This document shows positions 10,019 to 19,419 of a DNA stretch of 64,000 nucleotides, in pieces. The notes below the pieces were generated by a model. That model saw only the letters and a program-made list of their open reading frames with translations, ran no database searches and was not told where the DNA came from. Location of the stretch: NCBI GenBank assembly GCA_013822345.1, contig PNKH01000007.1, forward strand, positions 1-64,000, read 5' to 3'. The first letter of the stretch is position 1, and the number at the start of each line of letters is the position of its first letter. The position numbers and the translations under genes are program-made. The stretch comes from Isosphaera sp. (GTDB lineage: Bacteria; Planctomycetota; Planctomycetia; Gemmatales; Gemmataceae).

Positions 10019-11683
10019 GTGCCAGGGACGGCGGCCGGGCGGGCCGCGGCGGAGCTGCCGTGGCTGTGCCCCACGACCGACAGCCTGATCGCCCTCGCCG
10101 ACGCCCCGGCCGACCTGCCGGCGGCGGCCGCCGCCGACCCCGCCCTGGCCGCGTTCCTCCTCCGGTTCGCTCACCCGGCCGGGGAGACCGACCCGTTCGG
10201 GTTCGCCCCCGGGGCGCTCCACGCCGCCCACCTCCCGGACACCGCCGCCGCCCACCTCGCCGCGACCCGCGGCGGGGTCCTGCCGCACCAGTCGTTCGCC
10301 TTCTCCCAGGTGCGGGCGGTCGCCGACCGGGCCGCCGCCGTCGCCGCCCGCCTGGCCGACGCCGCCCGCCGGGTCCCGGCCCACGCCGCCGCGACCGCCG
10401 CCCGCCTCGCCCCGCTCGGGTGGTACGCGGTCGCCGCCGTCGACCCGTTCGCCGCCGCCGAGCCGACCGGCGACCCGGACTTCCCGTCCCGCCCGGCGGC
10501 GGTGCAGGCCGAGGTCTGGGGCCTCGACCACGCCGCCGTCACCCGCCGCCTCGCCGCCCGGTGGCGGCTCCCGGACTGGGTCGCCACCACCGTCGGCTGC
10601 CTGACCCTGCCGTTCCGCGTCGCCGGGCACCTCGTGTCGCACCCCGACCTGTTCGCCGTCGTGCAGTTGGCGGTGTCCGAGGTGGAACGGTCCGGCCCGA
10701 CGCTGGGCCTGGCCGGCGGGGCGGAGCGGGGGGCGCTGCTGGCCCACCTCCGGCTCGGGGACGAGGACGTGACAGAGGCGGTCCGCGCCACCCGCCCGGC
10801 GGCGCGGCCGGCGGGGTCCGGGTTGCCGCCCGACCCGCACCAGGTGCCGCTCGTGCGGACCCTGTTGAAGCTGGCGGGCGAGAGCCGGCGGCGGAACGGC
10901 CCGGGGCTGGTCGCCCGGCTGGAGGCCCGCGTCGACCGGCTGTACCGGGCGGTGACCGACCTCGGGGAGCAGACCGGGGGCGCCCGGGAGGCCCGGCTGG
11001 CGGGGCTGGCCGAGCTCGCCGCCGGGGCCGGGCACGAGATCAACAACCCGCTCGCGGTGATCTCGGCGAACGCCCAGCGGCTGCTCCGGACGGAGCCCGA
11101 CCCGGACCGCGGGGAGGCGCTCCGCGGGATCGTCCGCCAGACCGACCGGATTGCCGGGCTCCTGCGCGACCTGATGCACTTCGCCCGCCCGCCCCGGCCG
11201 GACGCCCGGCCGTTCCCGGCGGCCGACCTGGTCCGGGCGGCGTGGGACGAACTCGCCCCGCTGGCCGCCGACCGGCGGGTGCGGTTCGAGATCGGCGGGG
11301 CGCCGGCGGTGGCGGCGGTGTACGGCGACCCGCGGCAGCTGCGGCACGCCCTGGTGGCGGTGCTGCGGAACGCGGTCGAGGCGGCCGGCGAGGGCGGGTG
11401 GGTGCGGGTGACCGCGTCGGCCCCCGACGGCTCCGACCGGGTGGTGGTCGCGGTCGAGGACAGCGGCCCGGGGCTGCCGCCGGACGTGGCGGCGCACGCG
11501 TTCGACCCGTTCTACTCCGGGCGGTCGGCAGGCCGGGGCCGCGGGCTCGGATTGCCGACCGCGTGGCGGCTCGCCCGGCAGAACGGCGGCGACCTGCGGC
11601 ACGACCTGTCCGCGTCCGGCCCGACCCGGTTCGTGCTGACCGCCCCGCGCGCCCCCGAGGCGTCGGCCCGCCGGTCGGCGTAG
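10019..11683 (+). CDS. HDOD-domain sensor histidine kinase
   Basis: 554 residues. The N-terminal half is HDOD-like: LGWYAVAAVDPF and the characteristic EVWGLDHAAVTRRLAARWRLP. The C-terminal half is a histidine kinase: the dimerisation/phosphotransfer segment GHEINNPLAVISANAQRLL with the phosphorylated His near 339, then the ATPase lobe with N-box RNAVEAA, G1 box DSGPGLP and G2 box RGRGLGLPTAWRLA. No membrane span is seen, so it should be cytosolic. The GTG start at 10019 is supported by AAGGAG seven bases upstream. It lies directly behind the response regulator gene and is its probable partner. The signal sensed is unknown; HDOD domains are generally signalling adaptors without catalytic activity. 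Confidence 0.88.
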   Translation: MPGTAAGRAAAELPWLCPTTDSLIALADAPADLPAAAAADPALAAFLLRFAHPAGETDPFGFAPGALHAAHLPDTAAAHLAATRGGVLPHQSFAFSQVRAVADRAAAVAARLADAARRVPAHAAATAARLAPLGWYAVAAVDPFAAAEPTGDPDFPSRPAAVQAEVWGLDHAAVTRRLAARWRLPDWVATTVGCLTLPFRVAGHLVSHPDLFAVVQLAVSEVERSGPTLGLAGGAERGALLAHLRLGDEDVTEAVRATRPAARPAGSGLPPDPHQVPLVRTLLKLAGESRRRNGPGLVARLEARVDRLYRAVTDLGEQTGGAREARLAGLAELAAGAGHEINNPLAVISANAQRLLRTEPDPDRGEALRGIVRQTDRIAGLLRDLMHFARPPRPDARPFPAADLVRAAWDELAPLAADRRVRFEIGGAPAVAAVYGDPRQLRHALVAVLRNAVEAAGEGGWVRVTASAPDGSDRVVVAVEDSGPGLPPDVAAHAFDPFYSGRSAGRGRGLGLPTAWRLARQNGGDLRHDLSASGPTRFVLTAPRAPEASARRSA

Positions 11684-11695
11684 AGGCGGGTCCGG

Positions 11696-11751
11696 CAAGC
11701 CCGCAGCGCGAGCAAGGGCCGAGGCTGGCCCTTGCTCGCGCTGCGGGCTTG
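11696..11751. repeat. Palindromic element (unassigned family) after HDOD kinase
   Basis: Perfect 25-bp arms at 11696-11720 and 11727-11751 with a 6-nt loop GAGGCT. It starts 13 nt after the kinase stop codon and could act as its transcription end, although no T-run follows. Confidence 0.92.
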
Positions 11752-11784
11752 TGGCGCGCGTCGGGGAACCGCCGCCAACGTTCT

Positions 11785-11877
11785 GGTAGTATCTCAGTTT
11801 GGTGGGGCAGGCATTCCTGCCTGCCAGGGCTCGGCAGGCAGGAATGCCTGCCCCACCCACCACACCGAGATACTACC
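11785..11877. mobile_element. MITE-like palindromic element, family A, with target-site-like duplication
   Basis: A 93-bp insertion bounded by perfect 11-bp terminal inverted repeats GGTAGTATCTC (11785-11795) and GAGATACTACC (11867-11877). It is flanked by the 8-bp direct repeat AACGTTCT at 11777-11784 and 11878-11885. Inside lies a perfect 25-bp palindrome (11801-11825 and 11833-11857) identical to the one at 19362-19419. It carries no coding sequence, so it would need a transposase in trans. AACGTT is itself palindromic, which makes part of the duplication ambiguous. Confidence 0.75.
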
Positions 11878-11953
11878 AACGTTCTTGCACCCACGTCCGC
11901 CGCCGGTTACCCTCAGTAGCACACGTCTCCCGTTCGCCGCCCCCGGTGCCGTC

Positions 11954-19361: not shown

Positions 19362-19419
19362 GGTGGGGCAGGCATTCCTGCCTGCCAGCCACCCGGCAGG
19401 CAGGAATGCCTGCCCCACC
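19362..19419. repeat. Palindromic element, family A, after NHL gene
   Basis: Perfect 25-bp arms at 19362-19386 and 19395-19419 with an 8-nt loop. The arm is identical base for base to the inner arm of the MITE-like element at 11785-11877, but here neither the terminal repeats nor a flanking duplication is present. It begins 9 nt after the NHL stop codon. Confidence 0.92.

Follow-up and report, generated by a model that had tools for sequence, protein, structure and literature searches.

The window analysed here, a stretch of 64,000 nucleotides from contig PNKH01000007.1 of Isosphaera sp., contains at 11785-11877 a 93-bp unit that is very probably a non-autonomous MITE with IS1-like Gemmataceae ends (11-16 bp), its centre being a REPIN of a separate RAYT system. 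Signals of two unrelated transposases are carried by this one element, and we infer the actions of the enzymes from its anatomy and from published enzymes. Both layers are of known kinds; what is new is the recurrent nesting of a REPIN in a MITE.

Anatomy and setting of the 93-bp unit

The unit is non-coding and is bounded by perfect 11-bp terminal inverted repeats, GGTAGTATCTC (11785-11795, + strand) and GAGATACTACC (11867-11877, − strand), identified by inverted-repeat comparison and by the paired-end pattern described below. An 8-bp duplication, AACGTTCT, read directly from the window, flanks it on both sides (left copy 11777-11784, right copy 11878-11885). The left repeat is a MITE end with the family consensus GGTAGTGTCTC[A/G]GTTT, and its inner part, AGTTT (11796-11800, + strand), completes the 16-mer GGTAGTRTCTCRGTTT at 11785-11800. 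The inner part of the right end, CACCACACC (11858-11866), has an extra GTGG-like repeat that is also present in the copies on contigs C119, C27 and C48. Inward of the 11-bp ends, imperfect matching continues (AGTTTGGTGG versus GGTGTGGTGG). The inner palindrome (11801-11857) has 25-nt arms, 100% complementary, each consisting of GTGG followed by a small hairpin, GGCAGGCA-TTCC-TGCCTGCC. The left REP, GGTGGGGCAGGCATTCCTGCCTGCC (11801-11825, + strand), was delimited from the palindrome and its copies in the genome, and the inverted right REP (11833-11857, − strand) is the other palindrome arm; the 7-nt loop between them, AGGGCTC (11826-11832), is the REPIN spacer. As single-stranded DNA the 93-mer has a folding energy of -43.7 kcal/mol, versus a mean of -15 for shuffled sequences (z -13). 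Of the 104 pairs of inverted 11-mers spaced 50-90 nt in the window, only those bounding this unit have matching 8-bp flanks. The coordinates of the unit, its ends, the direct repeats and the inner palindrome as originally predicted all proved exact.

The unit has no transposase gene of its own and is crossed only by neighbours' or mechanical reading frames. It sits in a 270-bp gap (11684-11953) between two + strand genes, a histidine-kinase-like gene (10019-11683; named from reading its translation) and a comF-like phosphoribosyltransferase gene (from 11954; named from its translation, start codon by reading). The second family A REPIN of the window (19362-19419) is a free form: as the original prediction had it, MITE ends are lacking (flank scores 4 and 5, where 8 is the cut-off), as is an adjacent target duplication.

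Another dispersed palindrome (formed by CCCGCAGCGCGAGCAAGGGCC and its complement around a 6-nt loop) adjoins the 93-bp unit at 11700-11747, with 43 sites in the host genome at ≤1 mismatch, mostly CCCGCGGCGCGAGCAAGGG; G013, G015, G024 and G025 have similar copies. Elsewhere in the host (L274; C35:22800-27000) a RAYT-like gene lies between two palindromes, GGTCGGAGCCCGAGCGCGAGCGAGGG, at 1805-1866 and 2400-2460 of that locus, which resemble the 11700-11747 palindrome; the latter may be a REPIN of the C35 RAYT.

Relatives of the genus have only about 65-75% identity at the flanking genes, and an exact empty site was not found among them, the joined flanks failing to align convincingly between the genes. 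The closest relative judged from ComF is the Gemmataceae MAG L352 (GTDB r220; ComF 68% identical), in which a short spacer contains neither palindrome; this is compatible with insertion yet is not an exact empty site.

Family A palindromes with and without MITE ends

The host genome (G000; a draft assembly of 7,468,024 bases, 7.47 Mb, in 226 contigs) contains 163 sites matching the 16-base arm core at ≤1 mismatch, about two per palindrome (two sites for the reversed control), and about 80 family A palindromes, most of those sampled being without MITE ends. The sample comprised 56 palindromes with full readable flanks, contigs beyond C66 being partly covered; copies were picked by the core, so that core conservation in the sample is partly a product of their selection. 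Flanks were scored against the family consensus of the MITE end, copies with at least one flank reaching the cut-off of 8 being classed as end-bearing, and permuted flanks and a reversed-pattern control served as null models. Ends, intact or decayed, were present in 17 of the 56 copies (~30%) and absent from 39. The GTGG head is found at the REP in most sampled copies, and the terminal inverted repeats extend to ~16 bp in the best ones. Just 0-9 bp separate the REPIN from the 16-bp ends in the host genome, with no further MITE sequence left.

Direct repeats of at least 8 bp across the flanks were found in 8 of the 17 end-bearing copies, versus 6% in permuted flanks; for copies without ends (2 of 39, versus 6% permuted) there was no clear excess. 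With the test restricted by offset, duplications were detected in 12/17 end-bearing copies versus 14% expected, and in 6/39 of the others versus 10%, degraded duplications being weakly over-represented there (p 0.027). On visual inspection, duplications of 8 bp abut the ends of the copy in the window (AACGTTCT) and of those on C119 (CTCGGCCG), C162 (GGGGTGGG), C6 (CACCTTCC), C27 (GACGCGGG), C34 (CGGTCACG), C43 (ACGGGCGA; right end shortened) and C109 (CGCCCGTA). Further copies of the ends, for which a search had been proposed, are present in the host genome with different 8-bp duplications. The copy on C41 has perfect ends and no duplication, and in several others the ends have decayed to varying degrees beside a duplication that can still be read; given the many decayed ends, the MITE family may be old and immobile.

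Loops of end-bearing copies, which that of the window copy resembles, are more alike than those of random subsets (permutation p 0.004), as amplification of a single REPIN-bearing ancestor would produce, and loops of copies without ends are diverse. In 29 of these 39 copies the arms are unmutated, with flanks near random apart from a weak excess of end-likeness (24% with a score of at least 6, versus 12% of shuffled flanks), and a few of them may be decayed MITEs.

Two sequence variants of family A were also seen. In a subfamily represented at L034, L060 (8499), L129, L204 and L207, one arm is altered at three sites (GGCAGACATTCTTGTCTGCC) and the loop is 1-2 nt. In G022, most of 18 copies have matching changes in their two arms (GGCAGGCATTCTTGCC... 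and ...GGCAAGAATGCCTGCC) that keep complementarity, and flanks are T-rich beside the tag.

MITE ends and IS1-like elements in the Gemmataceae

The paired-end pattern (ends 48-78 nt apart) matched three sites in the host genome and, among 397 genomes of the class, was found in 6, every one within the host's family, and the reversed-pattern control matched in 0/397. The 16-mer GGTAGTRTCTCRGTTT occurs in 18 of the 95 genomes of the family (the host and 17 others; none for the control pattern). In three relatives, GGTAGTGTCTCAGTTT ends bound elements of 3-7 kb with perfect 8-bp duplications: 3.0 kb in G044 (TCAATTCG), 5.5 kb in G009 (GACTTTTT) and 7.3 kb in G010 (AAGAGAGC). Their transposase matches the IS1 model NF033558 with an E value of 7e-14 at 52 bits, below the NCBI curated cut-off of 100, and PF03400 at 22.1 bits against a cut-off of 24.1; on the strength of these profile matches it is called IS1-like here. 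The transposases of G010 and G009 have 68-71% identity to that of G044, which lies at L097:1064-2137 on the minus strand. Target duplications of the IS1 family are 8-9 bp long, a size range into which those in G044, G009 and G010 (8 bp) fall. Also in G009 (L098, 3381-5309), a 642-aa frame fuses the start of an IS1-like transposase to an IS701-type DDE domain, a case of one transposon inserted in another.

Elements in which these ends and 8-bp duplications accompany an IS1-like transposase, the kind of IS that the original prediction had proposed to look for, are present in relatives; in the host, no such transposase was found in the draft assembly searched, and the helper is either missing from the host genome or in unassembled DNA. 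Elements of 70 bp bearing these MITE ends but no REPIN, with an interior of 38 bp, are present in G075 and G091. With its inverted repeats, 8-bp duplication, dispersed copies, lack of a transposase and end-sharing transposase-bearing elements in relatives, the outer layer is a MITE. The earlier suggestions of an outer MITE and of a palindrome carried by a transposase-dependent element are supported by these copies and by the end-sharing IS1-like elements.

The REPIN and its RAYT

The inner palindrome is a REPIN, consisting of two inverted GTGG-tagged REPs with a spacer and able to form a hairpin. Published descriptions, as excerpted from PMC3116915 and PMC2817692, characterise REPIN-RAYT systems by paired REPs headed GT(A/G)G and by a RAYT that lies between REPs, and RAYT-associated REPs with GTGG heads are among those listed in the excerpted text of the latter. 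Of five host genes with Y1_Tnp matches, only C14:8324-8791 is surrounded by family A REPs, nine within about 800 bp (six upstream and three downstream); none was found near the other four. Its 156-aa product matches NF047646 (REP-associated tyrosine transposase; 87.9 bits, cut-off 80) and PF01797, and its best solved relative is TnpAREP (PDB 4er8, E 1e-5). From its sequence and position, C14:8324-8791 is the probable sole cognate RAYT encoded by the host for family A REPs. Relatives of this RAYT elsewhere (~50% identity) are mostly flanked by different repeats of their own, several of them GTGG-headed. As it also exists alone and has its own RAYT, the palindrome is a separate entity from the MITE that encloses it here.

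A RAYT flanked by the G022 variant of family A was expected in that genome, but none of four Y1_Tnp loci read there showed this arrangement. The idea that free REPINs insert into palindromes already present was rejected, complementarity of the flanks of copies without ends being 4.46, versus 4.24 in permuted flanks (of 12). The dinucleotide CC stands beside the GTGG head in 35% of copies without ends versus 10% in the background, an enrichment that the guide-sequence model predicts in the excerpted text of PMC8266576; it was set aside as evidence because G022 has TTTG there instead.

Nesting of other REP pairs

In relatives, these MITE ends enclose REP pairs of other types: GTAGACCTCACGCTCCGCGTGAGG pairs in G060 and G063 of genus g28, pairs of GTAGCCGGCCTC... 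and of GTAGCCGGGGTC... in G019, GTAGGTCAGGCTTTC... pairs in G066, and GTCGCCTTTCGC... pairs in G064 and G041. Perfect 8-bp duplications are common here (GAGCCATT and GGAATTCT in G060; GTTGTTTC and GACGGTCA in G063; GGATCGTG and TCGTGAAA in G019; CAGACTTT in G064). Matches with ≤3 mismatches were found around RAYT-like genes for the GTAGACCTCACGCTCCGCGTGAGG type (G033, G064 and G075), the GTAGCCGGCCTC type (G008, G016 and G075) and the GTAGGTCAGG type (G029, G063, G064 and G065), while the REP type of G064 and G041 was not found at any RAYT; including family A, four RAYT-linked REP types lie inside MITE ends. REP sites exceed MITEs in number (44 sites in G060, 66 in G063 and 60 in G019), and REPs of the GTAGCCGGCCTC type occupy 124 sites in G016, where MITE ends were not found. 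By our reading of these sequences, the REPIN-in-MITE arrangement appears to have arisen repeatedly, in different genera, at least four times, the independence of the nesting events being judged from unrelated REP sequences within shared ends, not from a tree.

MITE ends in G075 (L110, L111 and L330) enclose a palindrome without a GT(A/G)G head (CCCCATAAGTCCCATAGG...), with doubled ends in one copy.

Origin of the nested element and alternative explanations

To judge by the outer ends and the duplication, one enzyme involved is a DDE transposase working in trans; the inner part suggests an HUH enzyme that acts on single strands. Provided in trans, an IS1-like transposase would make its cuts at the outer ends, and the 8-bp duplication would result from its insertion of all 93 bp. 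The C14 RAYT (HUH) would, by analogy with E. coli TnpAREP, act on the REPs as single-stranded DNA without target duplication. Within the MITE the REPIN would travel as a passenger, with independent exit or copying out of the REPIN also possible in principle.

As to the order of events, the REPIN would have entered a pre-existing small MITE, which is judged about twice as probable as the ends having formed around it because MITEs lacking a REPIN exist. The reverse order, in which IS1-like ends came to flank a pre-existing REPIN by aberrant transposition or end capture and so made a new MITE, differs in nothing else and is rather unlikely: it needs two events where insertion of a REPIN into a 38-bp interior needs one, for which the 70-bp elements of G075 and G091 are a plausible acceptor, and what speaks for it is that the REPIN nearly fills the element in the host, with no MITE sequence other than the ends. 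Chance, or a structural extension of the palindrome, e.g. by compensatory evolution of a long terminator-like hairpin, is refuted as the source of ends and duplication and deserves next to no credence, because the ends recur with independent 8-bp duplications in the host and in other genomes and control patterns gave zero; the whole unit does fold as one hairpin between two same-strand genes, but direct repeats outside it are not predicted by hairpin formation.

A further reading is that all family A palindromes form one MITE family, copies without ends being old insertions in which selection or gene conversion has kept the hairpin, with no separate mobility of the REPIN. The graded decay of ends beside duplications that are still readable in several copies, the slightly end-like flanks and weak excess of degraded duplications among copies without ends, and the T-rich flanks by the tag in G022, resembling an inner MITE end, are all in keeping with it. 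We nevertheless regard it as quite improbable, since copies without ends combine perfect arms with near-random flanks (in part an effect of core-based choice), since loops are diverse in these copies and more alike in end-bearing ones, since a cognate RAYT surrounded by REPs exists, and since REPs of the GTAGCCGGCCTC type are abundant in a genome where the ends were not found.

Relation to known elements and implications

Bacterial MITEs of DDE insertion sequences (e.g. Correia, RUP, NEMIS and MITEAba12) are likewise short, non-coding and dispersed, with inverted repeats, a duplication of fixed length and ends in common with transposase-bearing elements; by description, not by sequence, the unit is set apart from them by its interior, an unrelated RAYT-type REPIN instead of an IS remnant. 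With the REPINs and RAYTs of Bertels and Rainey (2011; PMC3116915) and Nunvar et al. (2010; PMC2817692), as outlined in excerpts of those papers, it shares the inverted REP pair, variable spacer, GT(A/G)G head, dispersal and a RAYT flanked by REPs. Published REPINs are described in those excerpts as moving without a carrier, whereas ~30% of the copies sampled here lie within a DDE-type MITE, many with 8-bp duplications. ISPpu9 of Pseudomonas putida is also a DNA element positionally associated with REPs, but according to the excerpted text of PMC8450116 it is an IS inserted into a REP, and here the REP pair lies inside transposon ends and travels along. Compound inverted repeats of P. putida and P. 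fluorescens (Di Nocera et al. 2013; PMC3733652), present in hundreds of copies, similarly join REP-type repeats to other inverted repeats; in the excerpted text they consist of degenerate REPs of the GTAG kind next to stem-loops unrelated to them and are reported from the surroundings of tyrosine transposase genes, and DDE-type ends and 8-bp duplications, present here, go unmentioned there, a comparison by description only. In the open-access literature searched (titles, starts of abstracts and passages), no report of REPINs inside MITEs was found, and among open-access papers on Gemmata and RAYT none was concerned with RAYTs by title or abstract.

For annotation, the nested structure accounts for the occurrence of one palindrome both with and without transposon ends in the host genome. 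Little is understood so far of the way in which REPINs spread, and since they leave no duplication their sites of insertion are difficult to delimit. In MITE-enclosed copies the boundary is defined and the insertion has left a scar, which makes them usable as tagged insertions for following REPIN turnover. That nesting recurs with REPs of several types suggests a possible preference of RAYTs for hairpin or palindromic target DNA. We tentatively raise the possibility, doubtful as it still is, of a recurrent alliance between RAYT-type REPINs and IS1-like MITEs in the Gemmataceae, in which REPINs of different types (four supported, perhaps six) would repeatedly colonise the MITE centre as the extruded MITE hairpin offers a single-stranded target, yielding a segment movable by two unrelated transposases, one of which would leave 8-bp duplications and the other none.
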